A stretch of 33,557 bases of DNA from a virus, in IMG/VR virus record IMGVR_UViG_3300028840_001115, positions 1 to 33,557 of that record; one strand, 5' to 3'. Every line of letters starts with the position of its first letter. Position 1 is the stretch's first letter. This document shows, one piece after another, positions 10,115 to 26,141 of the stretch. A model generated the notes under the pieces. That model ran no database searches. It was given only the letters and a program-made list of their open reading frames with translations, and was not told the origin of the DNA. Position numbers and translations under genes: made by a program.

Positions 10115-10591
10115 TCATACCGGTCGCAGCGTCGTCGTCGTCGAGGTCGAGGTCGAGGAACTAGTCGACAGGCTCACAGTCGTACTCGTAGACTGCGTTA
10201 GGCTGGTCGAGACGCTAGTGCTCGATAGGCTGGTGCTAGAACTTGTGCTTTGCGTCGTTGACGTTGTAAGAGATGTTGAAACCGACGTGCTCGTCGTTAG
10301 GCTGGTCGAGACACTAGTGCTCGATAGGCTGGTGCTAGAACTTGTGCTTTGCGTCGTTGACGTTGTAAGAGATGTTGAAACCGACGTGGAGCTACTGGTC
10401 GACACAGTCGTGCTAGAACTTGTGCTGACCGACGTGGACGTTGTAAGAGATGTTGAAACCGACGTGGAAAGGCTCGACGACGAGCTGGTGCTGAGACTGG
10501 TACTGGTCGAGCTAGAGGTCGACGTACTCGTCGTCGTCGACGTGCTGGTCGTCGTGTTGTATTCAGTCCCGAAGTTATGGAAGAATCCCAT
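10115..10591 (-). CDS. Second mucin-like Ser/Thr-repeat protein, 158 aa
   Basis: After a 12-residue start (MGFFHNFGTEYN) the protein is entirely Ser/Thr-rich with Val/Leu spacers (TSVSTSLTTSTSVSTS style) until STSTSTTTTLRPV. The same ending (STSTTTTLLP) closes the Ser/Thr tract of the 766-aa protein, so the two share an origin. There is no globular domain. GAAGGATGAAG lies before ATG 10591. It probably forms a flexible, glycosylatable appendage; whether it is virion-bound is unknown. Confidence 0.75.
   Translation of the reverse strand: MGFFHNFGTEYNTTTSTSTTTSTSTSSSTSTSLSTSSSSSLSTSVSTSLTTSTSVSTSSSTTVSTSSSTSVSTSLTTSTTQSTSSSTSLSSTSVSTSLTTSTSVSTSLTTSTTQSTSSSTSLSSTSVSTSLTQSTSTTVSLSTSSSTSTSTTTTLRPV
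10201..10388. repeat. Two 89-bp direct repeats, 99-bp period
   Basis: Positions 10201-10289 and 10300-10388 match at 88 of 89 bases inside the small mucin-like gene. The 99-bp period is 33 codons, so gain or loss of one copy would keep the frame. Confidence 0.9.
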
Positions 10592-10597
10592 TTAGCT

Positions 10598-11089
10598 TCA
10601 TCCTTCGGCGTAAAAGACCGCCGTCACCTCGGCCCATCCTGGTACCGCTTGCGATACCGAGTCCTCGCGGCAGAACACGCGCAGGCGCTCGATGCAGCCA
10701 CCCAGGTGAATCGGCGGGCTGATGAATGTCTCGACGTCCCCGCTGGTGGCACAGTACGAGATGTATTCTTGCTGCACCATCGAGTGCTGAATCCGGCAGG
10801 GGGTCATCTTGCCCGGTACGTACAACGAGCCGTGGAACCACTCTTGCGTGGAGCCGCCGGCGAGCGCGGCGATGGAAAACGGGCTCAGGTCGTAGTAGTA
10901 GTCGACGCCACCCTGAACCGGGTGCTGGCGCTGGTATGCGAAATACAAGCGGCACCACCAGAAACCTTGCACCACGGCTACGGTTGGGTCTGCGTCCCAC
11001 GCGCCCGCAGCCGGCAGCGCGGCCCAGGTGCGCAGCACGGTGGGGTTGGCCTGGCCGGTCGGGTAAGTCTGCGAATTAGAAAGAGGCAT
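10598..11089 (-). CDS. Conserved virion-type protein, 163 aa
   Basis: The protein is beta-rich and aromatic: FWWCRLYFAYQRQ, DYYYDLSPFSIAA, EWFHGSLYV, FISPPIHLGGCIERLRVFCRED, EVTAVFYAEG. I have seen this arrangement in phage proteins next to Ig-like and fibre genes and would expect a small jelly-roll head or tail decoration. No enzyme motif is seen. It lies between the two Ser/Thr-rich proteins. Confidence 0.65.
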   Translation of the reverse strand: MPLSNSQTYPTGQANPTVLRTWAALPAAGAWDADPTVAVVQGFWWCRLYFAYQRQHPVQGGVDYYYDLSPFSIAALAGGSTQEWFHGSLYVPGKMTPCRIQHSMVQQEYISYCATSGDVETFISPPIHLGGCIERLRVFCREDSVSQAVPGWAEVTAVFYAEG

Positions 11090-11391
11090 CAGTCAAACTC
11101 CGAACTTTTCGCGTCGAACCGGTTCTCGCCTGCCGCCATCCCGGTCCCGGTCGAGTACCAGCGGTAGTACCAGATCCCGTGCACGGTGACGTTGACGCTG
11201 ATCTGGTACGTGCCCGTGGACGGGTTCGTGATCTCCGGGTCGACGCCGTAGGTGTAGGTGGTGATAGCCTGCGTAGACGGGTTCTTGATCTGGAAATAGA
11301 CGGCAGTCGGGTCGACCGCCGCTCCGGTGTCGGCGTCGGTGAACACTGCCGTGCAGACGACTTGATCTCCGATGTCATAGGAATGGCTCAT
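11089..11391 (-). CDS. Ig-like beta-sandwich phage protein, 100 aa
   Basis: The pattern YDIGDQVVCTAVFTDADTGAAVDPTAVYF, ITTYTYGVDPEITNPSTGTYQISVNV and GIWYYRWYSTGTG is a small beta-sandwich that I recognise from many phage structural modules (BppU/Ig-like accessory domains). It probably decorates head, tail or fibre; the exact site is unknown. The start is ATG 11391 because the longer frame begins inside terminator T2. The ribosome binding site is weak. The stop overlaps the next start. Confidence 0.7.
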   Translation of the reverse strand: MSHSYDIGDQVVCTAVFTDADTGAAVDPTAVYFQIKNPSTQAITTYTYGVDPEITNPSTGTYQISVNVTVHGIWYYRWYSTGTGMAAGENRFDAKSSEFD

Positions 11392-11407
11392 CGTGTAGCC
11401 CGAAAAC

Positions 11408-11613: not shown

Positions 11614-13914
11614 TCAGCACCCGTGATCCGTCAGCACCACCTCGTAGGCCAACGCATCTGTCACCGTCACCTCGTATGCCAGCACATCCGTGAGCGCCAC
11701 GGCGTAGGCCGGCTCATCGTCCGTTGCTACCCCATACGCCAGTTCATCCGTCAGTACCACCTCATACGCCAGCGCGTCGGTGATGACCAGGTCCGCCTTC
11801 TCATACGGTAGCAGCGTCGTCGTGGTGCTGGTCGAGCTGGACGTAGAGAGGCTGACCGTGGTGCTCGTGGACTGGCTCACGGTCGTGGACGTGGACTGCG
11901 ATACCGTCGTCGAGGAACTTGTGGACTGGCTTACAGTCGTACTTGTAGACTGCGAGACAGTCGTCGACGTGGATTGCGTCAGGCTGGTGCTGGAACTCGT
12001 GGACTGGGTAGTCGAGGTCGAAACAGAAATTGTTATGCTTGAGCTGGTCGATTGCGTGGTACTCGTGGACTGCGAGACCGTGGTGCTCAGGCTCGTGGAC
12101 TGCGATACGGTCGTGCTGGAACTGGTCGACGTCGTAAGAGAACTTGAGGTCGATACGGAGACCGTGGTCGAGGAACTTAGGCTGACCGTCGTGCTAGAAC
12201 TCGTGGATTGTGTCGTGGACGTTGTAAGAGAAGTTGTAAGCGAGCTGCTGGTAGACTGCGACGTTGTACTGCTAGAACTTGTGCTGACCGTGGACGACGT
12301 AGAAAGAGACGTTGTAAGGCTGCTGGACGTAGACTGAGAGGTCGTCAGGCTAGTCGAGGTCGAGAGCGAGACCGTCGTGGAAAGACTCGTGCTTTGGCTG
12401 GTACTCGATGAAACAGAAGTTGTTGACGAACTGGACGTTGAGACAGAAACCGTTGTGGACGAGCTAAGGCTGGTCGACGTGGTACTGGTCGATAGCGAGA
12501 CGGTCGTGCTCAGGCTCGTGGACTGGCTGGTGGACGTTGTAAGAGACGTTGTTAGGCTGGTACTCGTCGTAGATGTAGATTGCGAAACCGTCGTGCTGGA
12601 ACTCGTGCTCTGCGTGGTCGAAGTAGAAACAGAAATTGTTGTGCTGGAACTGGTAGACTGCGATACCGTCGTGGACGTGGACAGGCTCGTGCTGGTCGTC
12701 GAGGTCGAGAGCGAGACCGTGGTACTGCTGGACAACGAAGTCGACGTCGTGAGGCTGCTGCTAGAACTCGTGCTCTGGCTGGTGCTGGATGAAAGCGACG
12801 TTGAACTGCTAGAACTCGTGCTGACCGTGGACGATGTCGAAAAAGTCGTTGACGTAGACTGCGAGACGGTCGTCGACGTGGATTGCGTCAGGCTGGTCGA
12901 CGTGCTGCTAGAACTTGTGGATTGTGAGGTCGATGATGAAACAGAAGTTGAGGTCGAGACCGTCGTCGTGAGGCTCGTCGAGACGCTGGTACTGGTCGTG
13001 CTGGTGCTAAGGCTCGTGCTCTGGCTGGAGCTAGATGAAACGGAAGTTGTCGTGGACAGGCTCGTCGAGACCGACGTGGACGTGGTGCTGGTCGACTGGC
13101 TGGTGCTAGAACTTGTGCTTTGGCTGGTTGAACTCGAAACAGACGTTGTACTGCTAGAACTTGTGGACTGGCTGGTCGAAGTTGTAAGAGAAGTTGTAAG
13201 CGACGTGCTCGTTGTCAGACTGGTACTGGTGCTGGTCGTCGAGGTCGAGGTTGTGAGGGTTGTTGACGTCGACGTGCTGGCCGCGCACGGGCCTATCTGT
13301 GTATCATCATCCCGTAGAATGAAATCGTCCAGATATAGCGTGCCACTGGTGCCAGCGTCCACGCCGCTGACAGCGCCTATCCGCGCCCGGTCGGGCTTGG
13401 AGATGTCCTCCACGTCCAGGCCGGTCTTGTTTTCTTGCTGCACCCCATCGATCCACAGCGTGATCGCAGCGGCACTGCCGCCGGCGTATTCGACCAACAC
13501 CTCGACGTAGTGACTGGCGTCGGTGATGTCGTAACTCGAGGTGAGTTCCCAGCCACCACTGTCGTTACGCACGCCGGTGATGATCTCGTAGTTCGAGCCG
13601 TCGTGGCGCAAGTACGTCTGCTGGCGCAAACCGGTGCCATCCAGGAGCGCGACGACGGTGAATACGTCGCCGGAACTCATCGACAGCCCATTCGGGTCGA
13701 TGTAGAACCGGTAGCGGTACTCCGTGTTGGATAGCTGCGTGAACGTCTTTTCGCCATAGACGTCGTCGGTATCGTCTATGGCGACGGACAGGCCCCAGGA
13801 ACCGCACAGCGCCGCAGCTTGCGCGGCGGTAAGCTCGCCAACGTCGGGGTCGACGGTGCTGGTGTATTCCGTTAGGTTTCCAACCTCGTGCGTGATGTTG
13901 AAAATCTGAGCCAT
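11614..13914 (-). CDS. Mucin-like Ser/Thr-repeat virion protein with a LamG-like head, 766 aa
   Basis: There are three parts. Residues 1-210 look like a concanavalin A/LamG-type jelly roll: YRYRFYIDPNGLSM, WELTSSYDITDASHYVEVLVEY, ITLWIDGVQQ and SGTLYLDDFILRD. Residues about 212-700 are almost only Ser and Thr with scattered Val, Leu and Gln (STSTTVSQSTSSS style). Residues about 701-766 are tandem decapeptides of the form LTDxLAYEVx. No catalytic motif is visible. Its place between the cargo operon and head genes suggests a virion surface fibre. The long Ser/Thr tract is an obvious acceptor for O-glycans made by the upstream enzymes, which is inference. Codons in the tract are varied, so the protein repeat is maintained without strict DNA identity. 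Confidence 0.85.
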   Translation of the reverse strand: MAQIFNITHEVGNLTEYTSTVDPDVGELTAAQAAALCGSWGLSVAIDDTDDVYGEKTFTQLSNTEYRYRFYIDPNGLSMSSGDVFTVVALLDGTGLRQQTYLRHDGSNYEIITGVRNDSGGWELTSSYDITDASHYVEVLVEYAGGSAAAITLWIDGVQQENKTGLDVEDISKPDRARIGAVSGVDAGTSGTLYLDDFILRDDDTQIGPCAASTSTSTTLTTSTSTTSTSTSLTTSTSLTTSLTTSTSQSTSSSSTTSVSSSTSQSTSSSTSQSTSTTSTSVSTSLSTTTSVSSSSSQSTSLSTSTTSTSVSTSLTTTVSTSTSVSSSTSQSTSSSSTSTSLTQSTSTTVSQSTSTTFSTSSTVSTSSSSSTSLSSSTSQSTSSSSSLTTSTSLSSSTTVSLSTSTTSTSLSTSTTVSQSTSSSTTISVSTSTTQSTSSSTTVSQSTSTTSTSLTTSLTTSTSQSTSLSTTVSLSTSTTSTSLSSSTTVSVSTSSSSTTSVSSSTSQSTSLSTTVSLSTSTSLTTSQSTSSSLTTSLSTSSTVSTSSSSTTSQSTSSSLTTSLTTSTTQSTSSSTTVSLSSSTTVSVSTSSSLTTSTSSSTTVSQSTSLSTTVSQSTSTTQSTSSSITISVSTSTTQSTSSSTSLTQSTSTTVSQSTSTTVSQSTSSSTTVSQSTSTTVSQSTSTTVSLSTSSSTSTTTTLLPYEKADLVITDALAYEVVLTDELAYGVATDDEPAYAVALTDVLAYEVTVTDALAYEVVLTDHGC
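11626..11784 (-). repeat. Tandem 30-bp (decapeptide) repeats, about five copies
   Basis: The C terminus of the 766-aa protein reads ITDALAYEVV, LTDELAYGVA, TDDEPAYAVA, LTDVLAYEVT, VTDALAYEVV, then LTD. The period is ten residues (30 nt), with conserved D and AY. The copies differ by several bases each, so they are not freshly amplified. Confidence 0.85.
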
Positions 13915-14009: not shown

Positions 14010-14831
14010 CTAGAAGCCGAGCCGCGCCACCTCGGGGACGCGGGGAAGCGGTTCCTGGGTCTTGGGGTCTTTACCCCACAAATCATAGCCTTCCGGCCAC
14101 AAGAGGTCGAGCCGGTTCCACTGCTCACGAACTGGCGGTAGCGCCTGACTCAGACCGTCCGGCTCATCCTTGCTCTGTCCCCACCAGTGCCAAACCCACG
14201 ACAAGCTGGTAGCCAATGCCCGCAATTTCTGTTGATAAATCCGGGCCATTAGGTCATAATCTTCGCCGGCTCCGGGGAATGAGCGTTCATCGAACAGGCC
14301 AACCTTCTCCACCAGCAGTTCACGCTTGAACACGCTACACCAGCAGGTCAGGCCGTCGATCATCTGCCCGTTCTTTTCGTGAATCAGCCGCAAGATATTT
14401 TCTGGCTCGGCGCATTCTCTGAGCGTCAGGTGATAACGGAACCCATCTTCTCCATACCCCCATCCTGGCTCTTTCGGACTTGATGGGTTGACGCATACTG
14501 CCGTATCATATCGCTTGAACGTCTCCATTATCCCTGGCCACCACGTTGGGGTAATGAAAAGTACATCGTCATTGCATACCGTGACGTATTCAGTCGGTGC
14601 GAGTCGGATTCCGAGGTTGCTTGCTTGCGCGAACCCCAGGTTCTTCTTTGGTTTGATCCACAAGTCGCAGTGTTGGCGTAGCTCTTGCTCGAACTCGGCT
14701 ACCGGTTGCGTCTGATCTATGACGATGACGTAATAATTCGGTATTGTCATCACCTTGAGACTGGCAAGCGCATCCAAGATCCTGTCCCGTCGTACTATCG
14801 GAAAAACGAACGTGTTTATAATGTCAGTCAT
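14010..14831 (-). CDS. Glycosyltransferase family 2-like, 273 aa
   Basis: This is a GT-A enzyme: NTFVFPIVRRDRILDALASL start, YYVIVIDQTQP (about 33-43), NLGFAQASNLGIR (about 64-76), and the metal-binding VTVCNDDVLF (Asp88-Asp89). GLFDERSFPGAGEDYDLMARIYQQKL is the acceptor/catalytic-base region, as in rhamnosyl- or GlcNAc-type GT2 proteins. It is the last gene of the cargo operon and is followed directly by an intrinsic terminator-like hairpin and the large Ser/Thr-rich gene. Confidence 0.88.
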   Translation of the reverse strand: MTDIINTFVFPIVRRDRILDALASLKVMTIPNYYVIVIDQTQPVAEFEQELRQHCDLWIKPKKNLGFAQASNLGIRLAPTEYVTVCNDDVLFITPTWWPGIMETFKRYDTAVCVNPSSPKEPGWGYGEDGFRYHLTLRECAEPENILRLIHEKNGQMIDGLTCWCSVFKRELLVEKVGLFDERSFPGAGEDYDLMARIYQQKLRALATSLSWVWHWWGQSKDEPDGLSQALPPVREQWNRLDLLWPEGYDLWGKDPKTQEPLPRVPEVARLGF

Positions 14832-15541
14832 TCTCGCCCTCCCTCCATCTCATACCCAAACCACTCTTGCACGTCCCCCGCCACCCGCGCGAACGTCTCC
14901 ACCTCCTCGAACGTCCACACCGGCGGCTCCTCGTCCGCCACGCTCACGTTGGCGCGCCGCCCCGCGTGCTTCAGCCACACGTCGTGGCTCACGCGTGCGC
15001 CGGCCTGATCCGCGAGCGCCATCACCGCTGCGAACGACGTGTTGAGTGCTTCCAGCGGGAAGATCGTCACCCCCTGCTCCGTCAGCCGCCGGTACGTGTC
15101 GGCCCAGTACCAGCAGCAGGCCGCGAATGGCGTCATCTTCCTCGGCGGCGCTATCGGCGGGTATCCCTCGCGCCTGTAGCACCCCCGCTCCAGCAGTGAG
15201 CGCACGACGTAGCGGCCATCGCGCACCAGGCCAAGGATGGGCACGAACGGGAACGCCTCGCGCAGCGCTGGGACGCAGTAGCGCAGGTAGCTGTTGACCT
15301 CTGCGTATCCCTGCTCCGGGTGCCGCTGCCAGATCCGCTCCATCCGCAAGCGCCGCTGGCGTAGGAACTTGTCGGCGTCTAGAGCGCCGGCGTACACGTC
15401 GGCGTAGCGGGCGGCGTCGAACTGCGCCAGCGGCTCGTGGTGCACGTTCACGTCGTCGTCGCACTGGTTCAGCAGCCGCGCCAGCCACAGGGTGCCGGAG
15501 CGCCCGTGACCGGTGATGATGAAACGTAGGTCCATCTGCAT
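14828..15541 (-). CDS. Sulfotransferase-family protein, 237 aa
   Basis: The N terminus LRFIITGHGRSGTLWLARLL (5-24) is the 5'-phosphosulfate-binding P-loop of PAPS-dependent sulfotransferases. LGLVRDGRYVVRSLLERG (103-120) is the 3'-phosphate-binding motif, with Arg and Ser placed as expected. A helical C terminus ends WFGYEMEGG. The length suits a bacterial carbohydrate sulfotransferase. Members move sulfate from PAPS to a hydroxyl or amine, often on sugars. It lies between a membrane peptide and a GT2 gene with coupled overlaps (TGATG, ATGA). Sulfation of virion glycans is my inference. A P-loop kinase is a less likely alternative. Confidence 0.8.
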   Translation of the reverse strand: MQMDLRFIITGHGRSGTLWLARLLNQCDDDVNVHHEPLAQFDAARYADVYAGALDADKFLRQRRLRMERIWQRHPEQGYAEVNSYLRYCVPALREAFPFVPILGLVRDGRYVVRSLLERGCYRREGYPPIAPPRKMTPFAACCWYWADTYRRLTEQGVTIFPLEALNTSFAAVMALADQAGARVSHDVWLKHAGRRANVSVADEEPPVWTFEEVETFARVAGDVQEWFGYEMEGGRE

Positions 15542-15654
15542 CAGCCCTCCATCCCCTCTATCACCATCTCGAAAATCGCCGCAATCCCCATCACGTTGAG
15601 CGCCATCATCGCGCCCGCTGCGAACAGGAACGCGCCGGCGGCTTGCGGGGTCAT
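15541..15654 (-). CDS. Small membrane peptide, 37 aa
   Basis: The peptide MTPQAAGAFLFAAGAMMALN and VMGIAAIFEMVIEGMEG is almost wholly hydrophobic with one predicted transmembrane segment (about 6-30) and an acidic C terminus. The ATGA overlap upstream and TGATG overlap with the sulfotransferase downstream support translation. The function is unknown. Confidence 0.55.
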   Translation of the reverse strand: MTPQAAGAFLFAAGAMMALNVMGIAAIFEMVIEGMEG

Positions 15655-15878
15655 TCGGCCTCCGCTGTCTGTTCGTGCGCCCCCACGACGAGCTTGGCGA
15701 ATGCGACGACGTGCTCTCTCACCTCGACCGGCAGTTCGTCCAGCCAGTCGAAGAAATAATCCACGTCCTCGTTGGCGACCGGCGGCTGCGTGACCAGCCA
15801 CTTGCGCCGCCGGTGCTGGTCGCGGAGCACGACCTCGAAACGGTACGGGTGATCTGCCTCAAGTTGAAACGGGTCCAT
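15651..15878 (-). CDS. Hypothetical protein, 75 aa
   Basis: No domain is recognised. It has a beta-rich N-terminal half (YRFEVVLRDQHRRRKWLVT) and an acidic helical C-terminal half (VDYFFDWLDELPVEVREHVV). The start at 15878 overlaps the upstream TGA; ATG 15881 is possible. The end overlaps the next small gene as ATGA. Confidence 0.62.
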   Translation of the reverse strand: MDPFQLEADHPYRFEVVLRDQHRRRKWLVTQPPVANEDVDYFFDWLDELPVEVREHVVAFAKLVVGAHEQTAEAE

Positions 15879-16074: not shown

Positions 16075-17127
16075 CTACCTCCAACACCTGAACAACGGCC
16101 TTACCCCGTGGTCCTTCGTCGCCCCCAGGAACTCGACGCGCCCGAACCGCCGTTCCAGCACCGGTCGCCAGGTCTCCTCGCGGTCTGGCACGTGCCCCTC
16201 GAAGAAACACACCCGCTTGCACAGCGCGAACGCCCACGGGTCCGGGCGCGTCTGCTTGGCGCTCAAGGCCAGCACGACGTCGAACTCCGCGATGCCCGTC
16301 TGCCGCACGATATCCCCGGCCTCCCCCGGCAGCATCGCGCCTACGAAGTCCAGGTTCCAGTAACCGCGCCAGTTCGCCACCTCGTAGGCCAGTTTCGCCA
16401 CGTGCGGCTTGTCCACGCCCACCACGCGCAACGCGCCTCGGTCGTGCGCCTCCTGGCACAGCGCCCCCAGGTTGCAGCCCACGTCCAAGACGGTCGCGCC
16501 GGCCCAGTCCACCTCGTCCCACTGCATCGCCCGCGCCCGCGCGCCTGCGCCCGTGCGCTGGGCGTCCATCGCCAGCCCCGCCGCCTGGTATGCGTCGTTG
16601 CGGCTGCCCCAGGCTGCGCCGGCGGTGCAGCGGCGCACCAGGTCGGCCTCGTAGTCGCCGTGCAAGAAGTGATGCTGGAAGTCCACCATCTGCGAGCCTA
16701 TCCAGTTGGCGGGGTTCATGTCGCCGCTGCGACACCGTACCTTGTAACGGTCCACGACCTGCGTGCGGCAGGCAGCGCGGTCGAACTCTCTGCCGTCGTC
16801 CTCGACGTAGTCCGTCACCTGTGCCCAGTGCGCGCCGTTCACGAGCGCGACGTCGTACACGCGCGGTGCGAACCCTTCGAGCGCGAACAGGTTCTGCGCC
16901 CTGGTGCAGTCGGTCAGCAGGTTGCCCGTATCGCCCCAGTAGAACTCGTCCAGCGGTTGCGCATCGCGCCTGAACACCTTCAGGCACAGGCCCTCGCGCC
17001 CGTACTCGCGGGCCAGGATGCGCGCCAGGTCGGGGCCGTGAGCGACGTAGCTAAAGACGCCGGTCGCGCGGCGGTCGCCCTGGTGGGCGGGCGTGAGGAG
17101 GGCGGGTGGGATGGCGAGTGTAGTCAC
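16075..17127 (-). CDS. Methyltransferase with a kinase-like N-terminal region, 350 aa
   Basis: The C-terminal half is a class I SAM methyltransferase: motif I TVLDVGCNLGALC (about 212-224), VVGVDKPHVAKLA for the acidic loop, and FDVVLALSAKQTR for motif IV. The N-terminal half (about 30-115) has GLCLKVFRRD, NLFALEGFAPRVYDV and WAQVTDYVEDD, which resemble the N-lobe lysine strand and hinge of protein- or sugar-kinase folds. I see no convincing C-lobe, so phosphotransfer is not claimed. The start is GTG 17127, behind GGAGG and overlapping the zinc-ribbon stop. A longer frame to 17208 is low-complexity Ala/Gly. Confidence 0.78.
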   Translation of the reverse strand: MTTLAIPPALLTPAHQGDRRATGVFSYVAHGPDLARILAREYGREGLCLKVFRRDAQPLDEFYWGDTGNLLTDCTRAQNLFALEGFAPRVYDVALVNGAHWAQVTDYVEDDGREFDRAACRTQVVDRYKVRCRSGDMNPANWIGSQMVDFQHHFLHGDYEADLVRRCTAGAAWGSRNDAYQAAGLAMDAQRTGAGARARAMQWDEVDWAGATVLDVGCNLGALCQEAHDRGALRVVGVDKPHVAKLAYEVANWRGYWNLDFVGAMLPGEAGDIVRQTGIAEFDVVLALSAKQTRPDPWAFALCKRVCFFEGHVPDREETWRPVLERRFGRVEFLGATKDHGVRPLFRCWR

Positions 17128-17318
17128 GCTATCGCCTCCATCGTCAACTGCTCCGCCACCGGCTCCACTGCCACCGGCGGCTGCGGCGGCTGGTTCGGTG
17201 CCTTGCACCGGTCACAGACACCGGGCCGGCGCGCCAGGAAGTTGCAGAGAGGGCAGAGCCAGAATTTCTCGCGCCTTCTCTCGCCCGCTCTTGACCACAC
17301 GTTCCTACCCCGCTCCAT
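17124..17318 (-). CDS. Zinc-ribbon protein, 64 aa
   Basis: The sequence contains FWLCPLCNFLARRPGVCDRCKAPNQPP (about 19-45), two CxxC knuckles twelve residues apart, with basic residues before and a Pro-rich tail after. It overlaps the glycosyltransferase upstream by 14 nt. It ends in a GTGA overlap with the methyltransferase downstream, so it is co-translated. It is the third small zinc ribbon of the cargo block. Confidence 0.65.
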   Translation of the reverse strand: MERGRNVWSRAGERRREKFWLCPLCNFLARRPGVCDRCKAPNQPPQPPVAVEPVAEQLTMEAIA

Positions 17319-18147
17319 CCAGCACCTCCAGCCACCGCTCCCGCAGCCTCGGCCACAGCCAGCATTGACGCACGGCGTCAGCGCTCGCGGCCCCCAGCGC
17401 CAGCCAGTCTACCTCGCGCACGGCCTTCTTGAGCGTGTCCCAGTCGTCCACGATGACGATGCCTGCGCCCGTGCGGGCCAGGTCGCGGGCCACGCCGACG
17501 TCGAACGTGACGACGGGGCGGCCACAGGCGCACGCCTCCAGCAGCGGGAAGCAGAAACCTTCGCTACTACTGGCGCAGACGTAGACGTGCAAACGGCGGT
17601 AATACAGGTGCATCGTCTCCAACTCGTATGCGCCGGATTGACGCCCGCTCTCCATTTGGGATATATTTGGGATAAAGTCGATATCCCAAATCGTGGACAA
17701 TTCCTCCGTCAACTGCAAGAACTGCTTGCGCGGGTTCTTGAACTGGCCGGCCCATCCGACCTGTCGCCGCTCGCTCTTGGGCCACGGCTGCGGGTGGAAG
17801 TTCTGCGCATCCACGCCCCAGGGTAACAGATGCGCCCGGTCGCCGTAGCGCTTGGCGATGCGCTCGTAGACGCCGGTGCTGGCGGCGCACACGGTGCCCG
17901 CGTCCTGCGCCCAGCCGTACTCGTGTGGCTCCCACACGAACTTGACCACCTTCGCCGGGTCGCAGCCGGGCGCACGGTTGGGGCCCGGGAAGAAGGGCAG
18001 CACGACGTCGAACTCGTCCCAGTCGAGCGGCTTGTATGTGATGGTCGTCTCGTACTCCGGGCGCAGCGTGTCGGCCAGCTTGCGGGAGTAGTATTCGCTG
18101 AAATTGCGCCAGGATAGCCAGATGGCGAGTTTACGGGTCATCGTCAC
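17305..18147 (-). CDS. Glycosyltransferase, GT4-like, 280 aa
   Basis: This is a short GT-B enzyme. The N-terminal half is divergent. The hinge LLPWGVDAQNFHP (about 107-119) and QVGWAGQFKNPRKQF (about 129-143) mark the donor domain. The E-x7-E motif is intact as SSEGFCFPLLEACACGRPVVTFD (Glu196 and Glu204). The start is given as 18147; ATG 18141 is equally plausible. In contrast to the neighbouring 307-aa enzyme, the catalytic-region motif is complete here. Confidence 0.83.
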   Translation of the reverse strand: MTMTRKLAIWLSWRNFSEYYSRKLADTLRPEYETTITYKPLDWDEFDVVLPFFPGPNRAPGCDPAKVVKFVWEPHEYGWAQDAGTVCAASTGVYERIAKRYGDRAHLLPWGVDAQNFHPQPWPKSERRQVGWAGQFKNPRKQFLQLTEELSTIWDIDFIPNISQMESGRQSGAYELETMHLYYRRLHVYVCASSSEGFCFPLLEACACGRPVVTFDVGVARDLARTGAGIVIVDDWDTLKKAVREVDWLALGAASADAVRQCWLWPRLRERWLEVLDGAG

Positions 18148-18349: not shown

Positions 18350-18675
18350 CATCGCCCTCCCCACTGCCTGAGTGCCGCCTCAAGTGCGGGCAGCAGCGCC
18401 AGCCCTATCTCTGTTTTCATCGCCTCAACGTCACGCTGGAACTGGCGCGCCGTCTTGCCCGGCCGGCGGTACGTGTGCAATGTCCCTTGCCGTATCGTCG
18501 GGCGCGGCGGTAGATGCGGCCTGACGCCCATCGTCTCGTGCGGTAGCTGAAGCGTGCACGAAGTGTCTAACTCTATCGTCAGCAGTGTCGCCCCGCAGCC
18601 GTCCCACTGCCCTTCGCCACAGGTCAGGGCGTCATCAGGGTTGACCTTGCCGCACCACTTGCAAACCTTTGCCAT
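18349..18675 (-). CDS. Zinc-ribbon protein, 108 aa
   Basis: The N terminus contains CKWCGKVNPDDALTC and a further Cys in WDGCGATL (about 5-29), a zinc-ribbon-like pattern with widened spacing. The rest is basic, then helical (ARQFQRDVEAMKTEIGLALLPALEAALRQW). The start is ATG 18675, overlapping the upstream stop (TGATG); six extra residues at 18693 are less likely. It is the second zinc-ribbon gene in the block. The role is unknown. Confidence 0.68.
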   Translation of the reverse strand: MAKVCKWCGKVNPDDALTCGEGQWDGCGATLLTIELDTSCTLQLPHETMGVRPHLPPRPTIRQGTLHTYRRPGKTARQFQRDVEAMKTEIGLALLPALEAALRQWGGR

Positions 18676-19598
18676 CATCGCCCCCCCAAGCAAATCTCGT
18701 CCAGCGCCGCCAGCCGCCGTTCCAGCGGGTAGCGGTCGGCCACGTGCGCCCGGTAGCCCTCCGGGTGATATAGCGCGCTCAGGAACATATCGACCGCTTC
18801 GTCGTGCGTGTCGAATACCCAGTTACGCGGCCAGATGTCGGTCGCGCCGTTCGTGTTCTGGATGACGGGGCGGATGCCCTTGGCAGCGCACTCTCCCCCC
18901 GTCTGTAGCAGGTAACTCTTGTCTTCCAACCACTCGTTCAAGTCGGGGATGAACTTGTCGACGAACGTCACCCGCTCGGCCAGTTCCGGGTTGGCGCGCA
19001 CGAACGCCATACAGTGCTCCCGCCACCAATTCGGGCTCCACTTGTATCCGCGCACGTACAGGTGCCACGGGTTGCGCGGGTCGCGTCGCACCAGCGCCAG
19101 GAACACCTGCAGAGCGCCGAACAGGTTCTTCGCTATCCAATAGTTGCCGATCCACGCCACGTCGTAGCCGCGTTTCGGTTCCCGACGCAGCGTCCAGCGG
19201 CTCAGGTCCACGCCGCCGGGGACGTGATGCACGGGCAGCGTGTCGGGCAGGTGCGGGCGCATGTACTCGTGGATGTGGCGGGCCATCACGACCAGGCCGT
19301 CCACCCAGGCCCAGTTCACCTTGCGCCAGTGACCGCCGTACACGTCGGCGTCGACGGCCTCCGCGATGATGCGCGTGTTTGGAGGCTTCTCCATCTCGTT
19401 GGATGCGCGGCATAGGTTGTTGTCGACCGGGTAAAAATACGCGAGCCCACCGTCGCACCAGTTCACGAGGTCAGGGCCCCACCAGATGCCCGTCCGCACG
19501 TCGTGCCCCAGGTCGCGCCAGTGGGCCAGCAGCGGCTCGTTGAACTTGGATAGACCGGTCTCTTTGACGCGCCAGGAGTCGAAAAGGTAGATGTTCAT
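18675..19598 (-). CDS. Glycosyltransferase, GT-B type, 307 aa
   Basis: The protein reads as a compact GT-B glycosyltransferase of a kind I associate with phages and bacterial surface-sugar loci: MNIYLFDSWRVKETGLSKF start, HHVPGGVDLSRW hinge (about 124-135), YDVAWIGNYWIAKNLFGAL donor-domain start (about 145-163), then LNEWLEDKSYLL and GIRPVIQNTNGATDIWP. Where the family normally has an HE(S/G)xxxxxxxEAMAxG segment, this protein has only TGGECAAKG (about 233-241), so the first glutamate of the usual pair and about nine residues are missing. Activity is therefore uncertain. Confidence 0.8.
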   Translation of the reverse strand: MNIYLFDSWRVKETGLSKFNEPLLAHWRDLGHDVRTGIWWGPDLVNWCDGGLAYFYPVDNNLCRASNEMEKPPNTRIIAEAVDADVYGGHWRKVNWAWVDGLVVMARHIHEYMRPHLPDTLPVHHVPGGVDLSRWTLRREPKRGYDVAWIGNYWIAKNLFGALQVFLALVRRDPRNPWHLYVRGYKWSPNWWREHCMAFVRANPELAERVTFVDKFIPDLNEWLEDKSYLLQTGGECAAKGIRPVIQNTNGATDIWPRNWVFDTHDEAVDMFLSALYHPEGYRAHVADRYPLERRLAALDEICLGGR

Positions 19599-19894
19599 AC
19601 CATTGACTGCCAGGTTTCGCCGCCGTCCAATGTCTGCCAGAGGGTGCCGTCGGTGCAGTATATCCTGATGGCCTGCCAGGCTTTGTCGGTGTCAATATCC
19701 AAATCCACCCAGGCCCTTCCGTCCTTGATGTGGGTTCCACCGACCGTGATAGCCTCTTCCAGCACGTCGTCGTCGATGCTATATTCCACAAACTCTGGAA
19801 ACTCCGGCTCCGAAACCTCCGGCGCAATGCCCAGGGCCGTAGCGCCGACGATCAGGCCAAACCCCTTGATAAAGTCACGTCGACTTATATTCAT
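19595..19894 (-). CDS. Tat-signal protein with a C-terminal Asp-box-like motif, 99 aa
   Basis: The N terminus MNISRRDFIKGFGLIVGATALGIAPEV matches a twin-arginine signal: S-R-R-D-F-I-K at 4-10, then a mildly hydrophobic h-region and an acceptable cleavage area. No lipobox Cys is present. The mature part is short and ends LWQTLDGGETWQSMV, an Asp-box-like DGGxTW turn also seen repeatedly in the tail protein at 23-1522. This suggests export of a folded small beta protein across the host membrane, unusual for a phage gene in a virion operon. Its start overlaps the upstream stop (TAATG), and its end overlaps the next gene (ATGA). Confidence 0.72.
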   Translation of the reverse strand: MNISRRDFIKGFGLIVGATALGIAPEVSEPEFPEFVEYSIDDDVLEEAITVGGTHIKDGRAWVDLDIDTDKAWQAIRIYCTDGTLWQTLDGGETWQSMV

Positions 19895-20133: not shown

Positions 20134-20284
20134 CCTGCCCTCCCGGCAATCCCTGCCCCCGATAGTGCACCCACAGCCCGCCCAGCAACCACAGCACCGC
20201 GCCCACGGCCACCGACTCCCAGGCAACCGGGCGCGCCCCCAGGCCCAGGCCGATGAACCAGGTGCCGAAGTAGATAGCGCGCAT
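20120..20284 (-). CDS. Small membrane protein, 54 aa
   Basis: The sequence is MRAIYFGTWFIGLGLGARPV, then ESVAVGAVLWLLGGLWVHYRG: two hydrophobic segments (about 3-16 and 24-38) with an Arg between, and a polar C-terminal tail. The ATG overlaps the FkbM stop as TGATG. The gene overlaps the next by 14 nt. The function is unknown. Confidence 0.6.
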   Translation of the reverse strand: MRAIYFGTWFIGLGLGARPVAWESVAVGAVLWLLGGLWVHYRGQGLPGGQDGVD

Positions 20285-20952
20285 CACCCCGCCGTCGTGA
20301 ACTCGAACGCCGTCGCGTCCTGGAACACGCTGCCGACCTGCCGGTACCCGAACCCGCTTAGGAATTGCGTCACCTGTGCGTGTCGTTGGCGGTTCCGTAT
20401 CTCGACGAACAGCGCCGGCCTCTGCTCGTCCAGCAGCCGTGCCGCCCCCTTGAGCACGTGCAGCTCGTGGCCCTCCACGTCGATCTTGACCAACCGTACC
20501 GGTTTGGCGTGCTCTTTCGCCACGATGCTGTCCAGCGTCTCGACGACCACGCTCTTGCCCGGCACCAGCCGAAACTGGCCCAGGTTGCCCCCGAACCGCT
20601 CCATCGCGCCCTTGCCGCCCTTGTCGCTCACGGCGCAGTTGTAGACGTGGACGAGCTTGTCCACCCGGTTGAGCGCGTAGACTTGGGCCTGGCGCAGGCA
20701 CGATTCCGGTACCGGCTCGACGGCGATCACGAACTTGGGCGCGCAGAACTTGGCGAAGAACAGGCTATGGTTGCCCAGGGCCGCGCCCACGTCCACGAAC
20801 ACGCCGCCCTTGTAGTGCCAGTAGATATACTCCAGCATCCGCGTCTCGAAGAACTCGCCCCGTTGCCAGGTGGCTTGCAGGTGCTCGACGGGTTCCTCGG
20901 TGACGACGGTCGCGCTGCCGGCGCGTGAGGTGATGGTGTGTGTGTGCATCAT
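20284..20952 (-). CDS. FkbM-family methyltransferase, 222 aa
   Basis: Motif I is FVDVGAALGNHSLFFAKF (about 52-69), with VIAVEPVPESC following. The diagnostic FkbM segment is VRLVKIDVEGHELHVLKGA (about 152-170). Members are mostly O-methyltransferases acting on sugars or small molecules. The start is ATG 20952 or the adjacent ATG 20949; both overlap the upstream TGA, with GGAGGGG 3-8 nt upstream. The length is typical for the C-terminal FkbM domain alone. It sits within the glycosyltransferase block. Confidence 0.9.
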   Translation of the reverse strand: MMHTHTITSRAGSATVVTEEPVEHLQATWQRGEFFETRMLEYIYWHYKGGVFVDVGAALGNHSLFFAKFCAPKFVIAVEPVPESCLRQAQVYALNRVDKLVHVYNCAVSDKGGKGAMERFGGNLGQFRLVPGKSVVVETLDSIVAKEHAKPVRLVKIDVEGHELHVLKGAARLLDEQRPALFVEIRNRQRHAQVTQFLSGFGYRQVGSVFQDATAFEFTTAG

Positions 20953-21518
20953 AGCCCCTCCGATTTCCTGAAGAACCCGGTCGCGTTGTTGCGCGGGTTG
21001 CCGTCTATCGCGCCGTCCACGCGCCCCCGGAACTTGGTACACTCCCACCCGTCGAGCAGGTGTAGCGCCCGTGCTACCGGGTTGTACCCCAGGTCGTCGG
21101 CCACGAGCCAGCCGCCGGGCTTGACCTTGGCGCGGGCGTCGCGGATGCACAGCGGGCGGGCCTTGCCGTCCACGTAGACGAGGTCGAAGTGCTCGTCGGG
21201 GTAGTGCGTGATGATGCTGGCGTACTGCTCGGCCTGAGTCTTGGTGCCCCGGTTTCGGTCGTCGAACTCCACCAGGTATTGCGTAATAAGCGCCGGCTCA
21301 CATAGGTCCAACTCTTTCAACTTGCGCCCGACGGCGTCGAACCATTCCTCGTTGTTCTCCACGCTGATGACACGGGTGCAGTGCTGCGCGAACCACACGG
21401 TAGACTTGCCGCTGCCGTACTCGAAGACGTGGAAGTGCGGCTTGACGATCTCCTTGAAGAAGGCTACGGCTCCGGCGTTGACGAGGGGGAGGTAGGGCGG
21501 GTAGACGTCAATTTGCAC
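20949..21518 (-). CDS. Class I SAM-dependent methyltransferase, 189 aa
   Basis: Motif I is FEYGSGKSTVWFAQ (about 32-45), followed by ISVENNEEWFD, where the acidic residue binds the SAM ribose. LVYVDGKARP and VKPGGWLVADDLGYNPVA are the later motifs. The family resembles methyltransferases found beside glycosyltransferases in phage and polysaccharide loci. The start is GTG 21518, behind GAAGGAGG at good spacing; the longer in-frame extension to 21602 would overlap the upstream gene much further. Sugar O-methylation is a reasonable but unproven role. Confidence 0.83.
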   Translation of the reverse strand: MQIDVYPPYLPLVNAGAVAFFKEIVKPHFHVFEYGSGKSTVWFAQHCTRVISVENNEEWFDAVGRKLKELDLCEPALITQYLVEFDDRNRGTKTQAEQYASIITHYPDEHFDLVYVDGKARPLCIRDARAKVKPGGWLVADDLGYNPVARALHLLDGWECTKFRGRVDGAIDGNPRNNATGFFRKSEGL

Positions 21519-22371
21519 TGTCGGCCTCCTTCGGCTCGCACGTCTGCCAGTCAATCCCCATCCGCTGCCATCCGTAGTGATTCGCGGGCGGCCATATCTC
21601 ACGGTGGCCTTCGTGGTACGTGCCCTCCGAGTAACCGTGCTGGTCCTCGCCCAGGTCGGGATTGCCGAACAGGTGGATGCACTGGATGTCTCTGCTATAG
21701 CCGGTCTTGTAACCTGCCTTCTGTAGTCGCTTGCAGATGAAGCGCTCCTCGTGGTTGCGGCTCGGACGTTTGCCGCGCTCCCACCCGCCGACCTCGCGCA
21801 CCACGCCAGCCCGCATCAGCCGCAACACGGCCCCGACGTGGTCCCGCTGCACGATCTCGGGCGCGTCCGCGAACATCCGCTTGACGTTGTCGCCGATCAT
21901 CACGTGGGGCCGGCAGGCGATGGCGGCATAATCCGGGTGGCGCTCACCCAGGTCCAGCAGCCGCGCCAGCCAGTCTCTCCCGTCGACGGGAACGGGCGGG
22001 ATGATGTCGTTGTCGGTGCAGATGTACGGGTCGGTCTGCGCCCAGTCGAGCAGCAGGTTGAAACCCCAGTGGACGCCGTTGTTGTCCACGCTCAACTCGT
22101 AACCGTCCACCAGCCCCTCGGCGGCCAGCGCCTTGATCAGTTCGTCGCTGCCGTCCACGCTGCCGTTGTCGAGTACCAACAGCCGGTGCGGCGTCGTGGT
22201 GCGGGCGCGAATGGCGCGGATGCTGGCCTCGGTGATGCGGCGGCGGTTGCAGGACAGGAGACAGATGTCGATGGGTAGGCGAAGTTGCAAAGCGCGCGCG
22301 CGGACAGCAGCGGCAGTGACGGGATGCGGGTTGAGGGAGTCGAGCAGTTGGCGGGTGTAGGTTAGGGCCAT
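21508..22371 (-). CDS. Glycosyltransferase family 2-like, 287 aa
   Basis: The GT2 start is PIDICLLSCNRRRITEASIRAI with LLVLDNGSVDGSDELI (about 33-80). The acidic metal site is ICTDNDIIPP (about 117-126). WERGKRPSRNHEERFICKRLQKAGYKTGY near the C terminus matches the usual GxxxEExxLxxRLxxxGY-type acceptor region. The start is taken as ATG 22371, with GGAG upstream. ATG 22392 is possible, and the longer in-frame extension to 22482 overlaps the small gene upstream and is unlikely. It is the second of three GT2 enzymes in the block. Confidence 0.87.
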   Translation of the reverse strand: MALTYTRQLLDSLNPHPVTAAAVRARALQLRLPIDICLLSCNRRRITEASIRAIRARTTTPHRLLVLDNGSVDGSDELIKALAAEGLVDGYELSVDNNGVHWGFNLLLDWAQTDPYICTDNDIIPPVPVDGRDWLARLLDLGERHPDYAAIACRPHVMIGDNVKRMFADAPEIVQRDHVGAVLRLMRAGVVREVGGWERGKRPSRNHEERFICKRLQKAGYKTGYSRDIQCIHLFGNPDLGEDQHGYSEGTYHEGHREIWPPANHYGWQRMGIDWQTCEPKEADSAN

Positions 22372-22517
22372 GGCGCTATCATCTCCAGCCATAATCCCTG
22401 GCGTTGGGTAAGATGGCACCATAGGCAGTGACGCTCTTGCCACTGCTTCGTATCTGATCCGTTGAGTGTCCACGGCGTCCACCTATGCAAGCCAAGTGCG
22501 CACAATAGCCGTTTCAT
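22362..22517 (-). CDS. Small protein with HRW motif and CxxC, 51 aa
   Basis: The peptide begins MKRLLCALGLHRWTPW and contains RHCLWCHLTQRQG. I recognise this as a recurring type of tiny phage or bacterial protein that starts KRLLCxLGxHRW and carries a single CxxC; its function is unknown. GAGGAGGGCAAA precedes the ATG, the best-placed ribosome binding site in the area. Its end overlaps the next glycosyltransferase start by 10 nt. Confidence 0.7.
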   Translation of the reverse strand: MKRLLCALGLHRWTPWTLNGSDTKQWQERHCLWCHLTQRQGLWLEMIAPWP

Positions 22518-22859: not shown

Positions 22860-22870
22860 AGTTGCCCTCC

Positions 22871-23698
22871 TCATCTCACGTAATGAACATAGAGCGCCGC
22901 ATTGATAGTATGCACGCGGAAGTGGCGCGTCAGTGCAAGAAGAAATGCGTGGTCATCGCCCCAGGGATTTCCTATGTGACCCCGGCCTACAAGTCCCCTT
23001 GCGACCGGTCCCCGTTTCCCGCTGCCGTAGCCCAGCGTGCCGAACTCCAGCCCCAGCCATTCGTCGATCCCGTCGGCGCAGTGGTCGGGGTGCTTCCACG
23101 GCGGCATCGGGCCGACCTTCTCGTAGCACTCGCGGGCGAAGATGAACATCCCCGTCCCTATTTTCCCAGACGCGAACAGCTCGTGCGCTCCGTTCGTGTC
23201 GACAGGGGGCAGCCACGCCGGCCGTATCTTCGTCCAAGCGATAGCCACACGGCGGTTAGGCTCTCCGACCTGCCCGTGTACCACGGCCCCCGCCACCCAC
23301 AGGCGCACGCCCGGCTCCTGCTCGATATTGTAGGCGAAGGTCTGGAGGTACATCTGATCCCACGCATCGTCGTCGTCCAGGCGACAGAACCAGTCCCCCG
23401 CCGATAGCGCCAAGCCCGTATTCCACGATATCACCCGCTGCGACCGCTCTTTGTGCCGCACGTACCGGAACCGCCCCCCGCGCAGGTACTCGGCACAGTG
23501 CTCGGGCGGGTCCAGTTGCTCGACTGGCGGCTCTAGGTACGCCGCTACCGCTTCTAGCGTCCCATCTTGGCTGGCGTCGTCCACGATGATGCACTCGAAG
23601 TCGTGGTGTGTTTGCATCACGATGCTGTCTAGCGCCCGTTGCAAGCGCCCGTCGGCGCGGTTGAATGTGGGGATGATGATGGAGAATTGTGGGGTCAT
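22871..23698 (-). CDS. Glycosyltransferase family 2, 275 aa
   Basis: This is a GT-A fold inverting glycosyltransferase. The opening FSIIIPTFNRADGRLQRALDSI and CIIVDDASQDGT (about 5-47) are the classic GT2 nucleotide-binding start. The metal-binding acidic cluster is FCRLDDDDAW (Asp108-Asp111). A GTGMFIFARECYEKVG segment follows in the acceptor region. GAGAGGAGGT lies upstream of the ATG. The 43-nt gap before it is one of the few in this block. Donor and acceptor are unknown. Confidence 0.9.
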   Translation of the reverse strand: MTPQFSIIIPTFNRADGRLQRALDSIVMQTHHDFECIIVDDASQDGTLEAVAAYLEPPVEQLDPPEHCAEYLRGGRFRYVRHKERSQRVISWNTGLALSAGDWFCRLDDDDAWDQMYLQTFAYNIEQEPGVRLWVAGAVVHGQVGEPNRRVAIAWTKIRPAWLPPVDTNGAHELFASGKIGTGMFIFARECYEKVGPMPPWKHPDHCADGIDEWLGLEFGTLGYGSGKRGPVARGLVGRGHIGNPWGDDHAFLLALTRHFRVHTINAALYVHYVR

Positions 23699-24217: not shown

Positions 24218-24533
24218 CCTTTTGCCCTCCTCCTTCTGCCTCCCATCGCATACCCATTGCAAATGCGATGTGCACCAGTTGCAAGAGCATCATCTGACCT
24301 TGCGCCCACGCCTTGAGCACCCACTTCTTTTTCCGCGTCCTACTTTCCACATTCCCCGCTTCTGTCTTTACCAGCTTCAGCGCCAGCGCCCACAACAGTT
24401 GCGGCACGGCCTCGGCTCCCTGGATCAGCGCCCGGTACTCGTCGCCCGGCTCACCGATGATGGCGTCGGCCTCGTCGGGGGAGAGCAGGGATAGGGCAGC
24501 GGTGATGGCGGCGGTTTGTTGTTCCAGGGGCAT
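24210..24533 (-). CDS. Hypothetical helical protein, 107 aa
   Basis: No domain is recognised. The protein is mostly alpha-helical (TAAITAALSLLSPDEADAII; VPQLLWALALKLVKTE), with a basic patch RTRKKKW near residue 66-72 and a Gly-rich end. Its ATG overlaps the upstream stop as TGATG, and its own end overlaps the next gene by 8 nt. Confidence 0.65.
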   Translation of the reverse strand: MPLEQQTAAITAALSLLSPDEADAIIGEPGDEYRALIQGAEAVPQLLWALALKLVKTEAGNVESRTRKKKWVLKAWAQGQMMLLQLVHIAFAMGMRWEAEGGGQKDG

Positions 24534-24844
24534 CAGATCCGGCCTCCCAGACTTCCCTCTGTCAGAATCTCCATCATTCCACGCAACATCACTTCTGTTT
24601 CGTTGAGTGTTGTCTGAAGAGACTGCCTGAGTGCATCTTCTTCTTGCGATGTATCGACAAAGGGAATATCCCCATTTGCTTTACGGATGTCTCTTTCTAG
24701 CCGACTCTCAAACACTTCCCGCCAGTTCTTGAAAATCCTTTCCAGCACCATTGAGGCATCGTCGCGGTTCTCAAGTACCAGCGCCAGAGTTACCATCGCT
24801 GTTAGGTCAGCGAACAGAAGCATCATTGATTGCTTGTCGGTCAC
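24533..24844 (-). CDS. Hypothetical helical protein, 103 aa
   Basis: No family is recognised. The sequence is nearly all helix-forming (MMLLFADLTAMVTLALVL, then ASMVLERIFKNWREVFESRL), with a C-terminal helical segment. The N-terminal hydrophobic stretch (about 7-24) could be a membrane helix or a helix-bundle core. GGAGGGCAACCG lies before the ATG. The stop overlaps the next start (TGATG). Confidence 0.65.
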   Translation of the reverse strand: MTDKQSMMLLFADLTAMVTLALVLENRDDASMVLERIFKNWREVFESRLERDIRKANGDIPFVDTSQEEDALRQSLQTTLNETEVMLRGMMEILTEGSLGGRI

Positions 24845-24854
24845 GGTTGCCCTC

Positions 24855-26141
24855 CTAGACTAGCCCCTCTTTGAAGTAGAACAGCGGCTCGATATACCGT
24901 TTGAAGACATACGCCGGATTCCGCTCTTTCCGTATCCGCGTCCGCTGGGCCAGCACCGGGTTGTACTGCAACTCGTAGGCCACGCGCCCGGCGATGTTGC
25001 GGAAGTAACCGTCGGGGTCGCCGTAGGTGGTGTCAAACTTCGCCGTCTCCCCGGTGAGCGGGTTGACCGCGCTGCTGAACTGGAAGTACGCGGCGTGCGG
25101 GCCGTATACGCTGCGGAATACGGGCATGTCGCTGTTGAGTATCAGGAACGCGCCACACGCGGCAGCCTCTTGCGCGATCAGGCTGTACGTCTCGCTCACG
25201 CTCGGTTGGACGTGGACGTTGGCGAGCAGGCACAGGTCGCGCACTACCTCACGCGGCACGCGCAGGTGCCAGTCCTTGTGGAACTCGCTCGTGAACGTCA
25301 CGTCGATGTCGTTCAGCCCCATCTCCGGCAGCATCTTCTTGAGGTCTTTGCGGTACTCTACCTTGTCGCCGCCCGTACTGTGAAAGTCGCACGTCACCAG
25401 CCGCACGCTCATCCCGAAGTGCTTCTTGAGCGCGCTGGCGACGTGCAGCACGTGCTCGACCTGCTTGCCCCGGTCCAGGCGCACGGGGTAGACCATGATC
25501 ACGTCAGCACTGAGCAGCCCCTTCTCCTTGACCAGTTCCTTGGTCAATTCCTGAAAGCCGAAGAAGCGCCCGAAGTCGGTCGGGTGCGGCACCACGGCCA
25601 CGTCGTCGGGCTCGCACCGGAACGAACGGCACACGCGCGGCACGTCCCACGAGTTGGGGAAGCATAGTTTGGAGTTGGGGAAATGCCGCTGCAACGGCTC
25701 CAGCCGCCGGTCCTGTGTCGTCCAGATCGGGCTGGGGGTTGCGCTATGCACCCAGTTCAGCCACACGGCGTGCGGGTTCTGTTGCGCCCAGGCGCGGGCG
25801 GCGAAGTTCAGCGGCATGATGGCCGACTGGTAAATCAGGTCGTGGGTGATGATGACGTCCACGTCGGACAGCACCTCGTCCAGCGCCGCCTTCGTCGCCT
25901 TCACGTCGTCGCCAATCTCGGGGTAGAACTCGACGTGGTTCTTGCGCTCCTTCGGCGGCGGAATGTGGCGCAACTCGATGCGCTCCCAGGCGCGAACCGG
26001 CTTGAAGCCCTCGGAGACGACGCCGACGACGGGATAGCCCGCGTCCAGCGCCATGTTGATTTGCGCCTCCGCGATGATATTGAGGCTGTAGGTAGAATCG
26101 GCCTCGTAGAAGTCCGTCAAGATGCAAACAACCTTGCTCAT
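24855..26141 (-). CDS. Glycosyltransferase, GT-B fold, GT4-like, 428 aa
   Basis: The enzyme should transfer a sugar from a nucleotide-activated donor. The N-terminal Rossmann-like half opens with VVCILTDFYEADSTYS. The C-terminal half opens with VIMVYPVRLDRGKQVEHVL (about 214-232), the GT4 donor-domain start. The retaining-GT E-x7-E motif is present as SVSETYSLIAQEAAACG (Glu317 and Glu325). The length is normal for GT4. The start at 26141 has GGAGGGCACAGA upstream and overlaps the previous stop (ATGA). It is the first of six glycosyltransferases in the cargo block. The acceptor cannot be read from sequence; the Ser/Thr-rich virion proteins downstream are my preferred candidates by inference. 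Confidence 0.87.
   Translation of the reverse strand: MSKVVCILTDFYEADSTYSLNIIAEAQINMALDAGYPVVGVVSEGFKPVRAWERIELRHIPPPKERKNHVEFYPEIGDDVKATKAALDEVLSDVDVIITHDLIYQSAIMPLNFAARAWAQQNPHAVWLNWVHSATPSPIWTTQDRRLEPLQRHFPNSKLCFPNSWDVPRVCRSFRCEPDDVAVVPHPTDFGRFFGFQELTKELVKEKGLLSADVIMVYPVRLDRGKQVEHVLHVASALKKHFGMSVRLVTCDFHSTGGDKVEYRKDLKKMLPEMGLNDIDVTFTSEFHKDWHLRVPREVVRDLCLLANVHVQPSVSETYSLIAQEAAACGAFLILNSDMPVFRSVYGPHAAYFQFSSAVNPLTGETAKFDTTYGDPDGYFRNIAGRVAYELQYNPVLAQRTRIRKERNPAYVFKRYIEPLFYFKEGLV

Follow-up and report, generated by a model that had tools for sequence, protein, structure and literature searches.

A candidate phage module for O-glycosylation of serine/threonine-tract surface proteins

Why would a phage keep, among its head genes, a 16-kb block of glycosyl-, methyl- and sulfotransferase genes together with proteins that consist largely of serine and threonine? 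The question is raised by IMGVR_UViG_3300028840_001115, an IMG/VR virus record and not a host contig, whose 33,557 bases (33.6 kb) are the window referred to throughout. The block (10115-26141, minus strand) encodes six glycosyltransferases (GTs), three methyltransferases (one of them weakly assigned), one sulfotransferase and two Ser/Thr-tract proteins, an inventory given in a preliminary description of this DNA and confirmed here by coordinates and by Pfam or homology matches. We propose, with a probability of roughly 0.7 and from sequence comparison, that the block is a mobile phage protein O-glycosylation module for Ser/Thr-tract surface proteins. The proposal builds on what is directly observed: the gene content, its strand and order, its recurrence in unrelated phages and its covariation with the tract itself. 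Three genes are central to the argument:

24855-26141, minus strand: GT1, a GT-B/GT4-type glycosyltransferase of 428 amino acids (aa), encoded first among the enzymes and used as marker of the module (PF00534, 2.6e-7); candidate initiating Ser/Thr O-glycosyltransferase
11614-13914, minus strand: candidate acceptor of 766 aa with a ConA/LamG-like domain, a Ser/Thr tract and a repeat-rich C-terminus
10115-10591, minus strand: second candidate acceptor of 158 aa, nearly all Ser/Thr (S or T at 121 of 144 tract residues)

Recurrence of GT1 with Ser/Thr tracts

A Ser/Thr tract is defined here as at least 75% S/T over 40 aa. A DNA pattern search for Ser/Thr tracts yielded, among others, phages G021, G072, G074, G075, G078 and G084, which encode GT1s 28-44% identical to that of the window over the full length; none has a terminase or portal match to the window, and the capsid match is weak at most. 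Three of the phages found in this way also share the last and the middle family 2 glycosyltransferase (GT2) of the block, and two the GT at 18675-19598. Their gene order runs from the capsid gene through small Ser/Thr-tract proteins, GT1, the other enzymes and the last GT2 to large proteins that combine Ser/Thr tracts with beta-sandwich-like domains, among them a Pfam LamG domain (4.6e-21).

An alignment search in IMG/VR gave 102 GT1 relatives, and 80 of these loci were fetched, selected by GT1 homology alone. A tract lies within 10 kb in 60/80, and all 118 tracts are on the GT1 strand. Their positions peak 0.3-1.7 kb upstream of GT1; a tract stands at most 2.5 kb upstream in 49 of 77 loci, where random placement gave a mean of 16 and a maximum of 25 (1000 runs). 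When the loci were grouped at 70% protein identity, 35 of the 45 groups had a tract. The co-occurrence search in related phages, which the preliminary description had named beforehand, therefore found the Ser/Thr genes and the GT block linked and not independent. GT1 had no match in 50,697 GenBank phage records (tblastn, E<=1e-3), and no account of this pairing of enzymes with Ser/Thr tracts was found among open-licence papers. The preliminary description, which knew of no such phage, is too cautious here: the pairing occurs in many uncultured phages, although the marker GT1 is in none of the isolates searched.

A single clade, defined by capsid, terminase or portal, accounts for 52 of the 80 loci, 50 of them with a tract. 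Among the 28 remaining loci a tract lies within 10 kb in 10, and, where the +-10 kb locus lacked one, reading whole records revealed very long tracts farther off in G121, G136, G149 and G157. In records of at least 20 kb outside the clade, tracts occur in 16/22 as against 0/12 control records (Fisher 3.7e-5), or in 13/19 against 0/12 (Fisher 1.4e-4) once the three phages that served as query sources are removed; as some of these records are mutually related, the p-values are upper-bound evidence and not exact. A further count, at least three GT domains in 8/20 tract-bearing and 3/46 other records (p=0.002), is a lead only, because the records were picked by tract and the others are chance pattern matches.

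The enzymes could follow either the tract or the domain that carries it. Relatives of the lectin-like domain of the 766-aa protein occur at 33 loci, and module genes accompany it in 3/3 loci with a tract and 0/30 without (Fisher 1.8e-4; 2e-3 without L263, the query source), so the enzymes go with the tract and not with the carrier domain. One relative of this domain (L013:8792-10813) is set within AGALTPAGSL-type repeats with no Ser/Thr tract, in a record without detectable PF00535 or PF00534 genes. L263 is the same record as L220, where the order is GT1, two GT2s, a sulfotransferase (48% identical to that of the window), a GT like that at 18675-19598, the last GT2 and then a 1504-aa Ser/Thr protein, which opens with a domain matching that of the window at 52% identity and has beta-sandwich-like domains alternating with Ser/Thr tracts. 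Its tail genes, with a tape-measure gene upstream of the module, have no match to the window; by its predicted gene products, the locus repeats these enzymes, with the sulfotransferase and the Ser/Thr protein, in a phage unrelated to that of the window. We do not claim the 1504-aa protein as a tail hub, the model of its C-terminal half having a predicted local distance difference test score (pLDDT) of 37. The pairing of enzymes and acceptors put forward in the preliminary description gains comparative linkage from these data, the GT block and tract genes travelling together in structurally unrelated phages, while a glycan on the tract proteins is a prediction.

Several points weigh against our proposal. 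The association in the 52-locus clade may have been inherited once, and GT1 is not in a recognised protein O-glycosyltransferase family. Some module records of at least 20 kb (G116, L178, G117 and G154) have no tract, and in G151 one appears only when the threshold is relaxed. In many phages with tracts, for the most part Thr/Pro-rich ones (for example G026, G033, G076 and G077), there is no GT match, which means that a phage with a tract does not necessarily glycosylate it.

Tract-like proteins were also seen in other settings. G021 encodes two proteins of 914 and 1223 aa (L155:1548-4289 and L155:7511-11179) resembling the proline/threonine/serine (PTS) domains of mucins, with Thr/Pro/Ser tracts between other domains; downstream lie GTs and two proteins that by eye resemble hexapeptide acyltransferases. 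In G029 (L157:1-17000) a long poly-Thr stretch (contig 34645-34884) stands beside a very large cluster of GT and sugar-metabolism genes; no relative of GT1 was noticed in this phage. On two contigs of proteobacterial metagenome-assembled genomes (L289:9698-11805 and L290:9317-11700), a GT1 homolog adjoins a small gene whose product carries a '(V/I)NTVV(L/V)PxHAQ' segment followed by a terminal Ser/Thr tail; the L290 homolog, as read by eye, has a fused N-terminal sulfotransferase-like domain. These pairs suggest that the phage module has a cellular counterpart, and the related bacterial chromosomal genes hint at a cellular origin.

Candidate acceptors and enzymes of the block

The 766-aa protein begins with the ConA/LamG-like domain (aa 1 to about 205), followed by a 495-aa tract and about 60 C-terminal residues of LAYEVxLTD-type repeats. 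Serine or threonine makes up 400 of the 495 tract residues (about 80%), and the sole proline lies at the extreme end of the tract. The N-terminal domain is modelled as a ConA-like beta-sandwich (pLDDT 70; best Foldseek E 9.9e-7), with Foldseek matches to calreticulin, NC4/TSPN, alginate lyases and a cyanophage tailspike; it does not reach the Pfam LamG threshold. In both tracts of the window the non-Ser/Thr residues (L, V, Q) fall, with few exceptions, at even spacings (2, 4, 6, 8, 10), alternating with Ser/Thr, a pattern that could be recognised by a GT or reflect a strand-like backbone. By eye the tracts of G149 and G121 resemble these, but counting shows no clear preference for even spacings.

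Repeated 8-residue peptides of the long tract are encoded with differing codons at 1782 of 3176 positions (56%); only 2 identical DNA copies occur, and the synonymous differences include Ser codons of both classes. Such codon turnover under a constant peptide is what selection on the peptide would produce; slippage or repeat copying of DNA does not account for the long tract. This bears on the reading of the tracts as low-complexity linkers or products of repeat expansion, whose co-occurrence with GTs would reflect no more than an extensive accessory region among the structural genes. The short tract at 10115-10591 does contain one recent 99-bp tandem duplication, and Thr/Ser-rich tracts are common in IMG/VR, often without GTs; against this stand the codon turnover, a linkage to the GT1 family in particular that holds outside the main clade too, and the carrier-domain result, and we regard the reading as very improbable. 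In relatives of the window the gene slot at 10115-10591 is occupied by unrelated, variable genes.

The enzymes that accompany GT1 are the following:

22871-23698, minus strand: GT2 (PF00535, 1.8e-25), with relatives in G072 and G075
21508-22482, minus strand: GT2 (PF00535, 1.6e-8), 35-38% identical to proteins of G072, G075 and G084
20949-21602, minus strand: methyltransferase of the Methyltransf_24 type (PF13578, 4.2e-6)
20284-21150, minus strand: FkbM-type methyltransferase (PF05050, 4.6e-20), its true start perhaps further inside the open reading frame (ORF)
18675-19598, minus strand: diverged GT-B-type glycosyltransferase, with no direct Pfam match and recognised through homologs in G075 and G084
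17305-18147, minus strand: GT-B-type glycosyltransferase (PF00534, 6.5e-13; also PF13692)
16075-17208, minus strand: weakly assigned methyltransferase (PF13489/PF13649 at about 1e-3, below cut-off), with a 59% identical copy in the sister block L174
14828-15541, minus strand: sulfotransferase of the Sulfotransfer_3 type (PF13469, 1.2e-6; 29.4 bits against a cut-off of 27)
14010-14831, minus strand: GT2 (PF00535, 9.6e-11), last enzyme of the module, 34-39% identical to proteins of G072, G075 and G084

Five of the six GTs pass Pfam directly (PF00534 or PF00535). The sixth, at 18675-19598, is 27-29% identical to the G075 and G084 proteins (E about 1e-23 to 1e-25), which themselves score 1.4e-10 (passing) and 2.4e-5 (just below cut-off) against PF00534. 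Among relatives of the last GT2 with enough flanking sequence, 5/8 have a tract no more than 4 kb downstream. The sulfotransferase scores above the curated PF13469 cut-off and has the binding motifs for 3'-phosphoadenosine 5'-phosphosulfate, GHGRSGT (RSGT) and VRDGR being readable in its sequence; it is 66% identical to the L174 copy and, as noted, 48% to that of L220. Single-sequence scans gave zero relatives for the sulfotransferase and one for LamG, and alignments were required. Sulfotransferase matches occur in 5/50 module records, 3 of them above the Pfam cut-off. Enzymes for the sulfation and methylation proposed in the preliminary description are present; sulfation would, from this count, be an optional decoration, and the tracts are predicted substrates of both modifications.

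Additional small genes lie inside the enzyme block. Two small ORFs (15541-15801 and 24533-24844) have one hydrophobic segment each, and a 99-aa protein (19595-19894) has a twin-arginine-like N-terminus, SRRDFIK. Hydrophobic segments in the block are limited to such short, single-segment small ORFs; neither a flippase nor a polymerase nor a membrane-bound enzyme for initiation was found in the block, and its GTs have no strong hydrophobic segment.

The lack of a multi-spanning flippase or polymerase argues against an O-antigen-type function and would favour protein glycosylation. The block might nonetheless remodel a surface glycan of the host (O-antigen, capsule or glycolipid), leading to receptor change or superinfection exclusion, with the Ser/Thr proteins as unmodified flexible fibre stalks. 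One block GT2 has weak GtrB-like matches (6.1e-6), annotation as O-antigen conversion genes is common for phage GTs of this type, and gene clusters for cell-surface glycans often contain FkbM methyltransferases and sulfotransferases. Remodelling of the host surface would leave unexplained why the enzymes track the Ser/Thr tract rather than its carrier domain, and why the tracts, 118/118 of them, are on the same strand as GT1 and concentrated in its vicinity; we consider it unlikely. In the gtrABC systems of O-antigen conversion the glycosyltransferases are likewise phage-borne, but the block of the window has no GtrA-like flippase and no multi-transmembrane GtrC or membrane-spanning glucosyltransferase.

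The structural backbone around the block

The structural module of the window is the head and packaging set of a caudovirus. On the minus strand the order is small and large terminase, portal, minor head protein, the 16-kb block, a 163-aa conserved protein, a protease/scaffold-like protein, a 219-aa conserved protein and the major capsid protein (MCP). The following genes bound the block or adjoin the Ser/Thr gene:

27733-29631, minus strand: portal protein, one flank of the island (phrog_10963, 1.7e-22)
10598-11089, minus strand: 163-aa conserved structural-module protein adjoining the Ser/Thr gene, with same-place homologs in MCP relatives (32-47%)
5512-6657, minus strand: MCP, the other flank of the island (phrog_4523, 3.5e-23)

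Relatives of the capsid protein at 19 loci (58-69% identical) keep the backbone and have no Ser/Thr tracts and no GT block, so the block and the tract genes are an insertion relative to the backbone. A tract was found in 0/11 of the structural relatives without the module whose records were read whole; a few have one unrelated GT each. L174 departs from this pattern: this sister, retrieved by its GT1 (68% identical), has the whole enzyme block as well as a portal and terminase at 56-60% identity; its contig stops inside the last GT2, ahead of the expected start of the Ser/Thr gene. Directly past the capsid region of the window, two neighbouring homologous proteins (3023-5039) with weak tail-spike profile matches are kept in relatives. 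Bacterial genomes scanned with the MCP alignment gave no MCP relative, and for this reason no host is assigned. DNA glycosylation was set aside, as the window has no recognised gene for base hypermodification, though no search was aimed at such genes.

The position of the block within the structural module would also suit glycosylation of a capsid or tail-tube protein, with the Ser/Thr proteins as incidental neighbours. PMC12363180, PMC12619734 and PMC11256854, which cite Freeman et al. 2023, describe this in mycobacteriophages (Che8, Corndog, Myrna), where phage GTs modify the structural proteins of their own phage, the glycans being reported at the C-termini of capsid and tail-tube subunits, with a shielding effect. 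In the phages studied here, however, GT1 and Ser/Thr tracts recur across module bearers whose MCPs belong to different families (similarity of about 27%, or none), phages related through the MCP but lacking the module retain its type, and GT1 itself is without a match in the phage records searched. Modification of the capsid or tail tube in place of the tracts is accordingly a distinctly unlikely account of the block. As in mycobacteriophages, GTs lie near structural genes, six of them between the minor head and capsid genes of the window; the acceptors would be dedicated Ser/Thr-tract proteins instead of capsid or tail-tube subunits, and up to six GTs are joined by methyl- and sulfotransferases. 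Because GT1 has no relative in those 50,697 records, the window would belong with known phage virion glycosylation by its proposed function only.

A model for the module

A functional parallel to our proposal may lie in the serine-rich repeat protein (SRRP) glycosylation islands of Gram-positive bacteria, which combine in one locus a long Ser-rich acceptor, a GT-B-type first enzyme and accessory GTs, add the sugars in the cytoplasm and produce a glycosylated stalk bearing a binding domain (PMC7661464). The tract of the window has the same alternating Ser-x-Ser composition in a long acceptor. GT1 differs from the initiating pair GtfA/GtfB: a profile of 34 GT1s compared with solved structures gave generic GT-B matches (best 1.9e-6) and no GtfA/GtfB, and no such NCBIfam model was matched. 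No accessory Sec component (SecA2/SecY2/Asp) had a Pfam or PHROGs match in the scanned block proteins, small ORFs being excluded; export would not be needed for the tract proteins, as virions assemble inside the cell. The module might thus work like an SRRP island without being one. Eukaryotic mucins also have long Ser/Thr tracts (PTS domains), thought to be densely O-glycosylated and possibly sulfated (PMC9853417), and the Pro-containing, PTS-like tracts of G021 are joined to beta-sandwich-like domains. The tract of the window, by contrast, has one proline, belongs to a bacterial virus and shows no homology to mucins.

From the arrangement of the genes we infer the relation of enzymes to acceptors, the reactions and their order, the identity of the sugars, the virion location and the benefit. 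We propose that GT1, whose gene is usually the nearest to the tract, or a partner in the block, adds the first sugar to Ser/Thr of the tract in the host cytoplasm during virion assembly. The other GTs (GT2s) would lengthen the glycan chain, and the methyltransferases and sulfotransferase, variable among phages, would cap or charge it. The position of the tract genes among structural genes suggests that the proteins are located on the virion; a protein of L294, read by eye as a tail protein, has a C-terminal tract, a further hint of such a location. The glycosylated tracts could act as extended rods that display lectin-like beta-sandwich domains on the particle surface, and the benefit may be adsorption to glycan-rich surfaces or shielding; the preliminary description suggested, as candidate roles, binding of host glycans, masking of receptors and evasion of defence.

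We lean, a little beyond even odds, towards a broader claim: that this is a widespread, undescribed O-glycosylation system of uncultured phages, in which a family of GT1 enzymes, specialised for surface proteins with Ser/Thr tracts, forms part of a cassette, of suggested cellular origin, that has moved between unrelated phages with exchangeable methyl-, sulfo- and sugar-modifying enzymes, each phage building its own mucin-like coat. The module, whose marker is absent from the cultured phages searched, would be a defined genetic lead to a new kind of protein O-glycosyltransferase acting on simple Ser/Thr tracts, with sulfation as an option. If the claim is true, many environmental phages make their own glycan coat on dedicated mucin-like proteins, and our view of the adsorption, particle diffusion and recognition of such phages would change.

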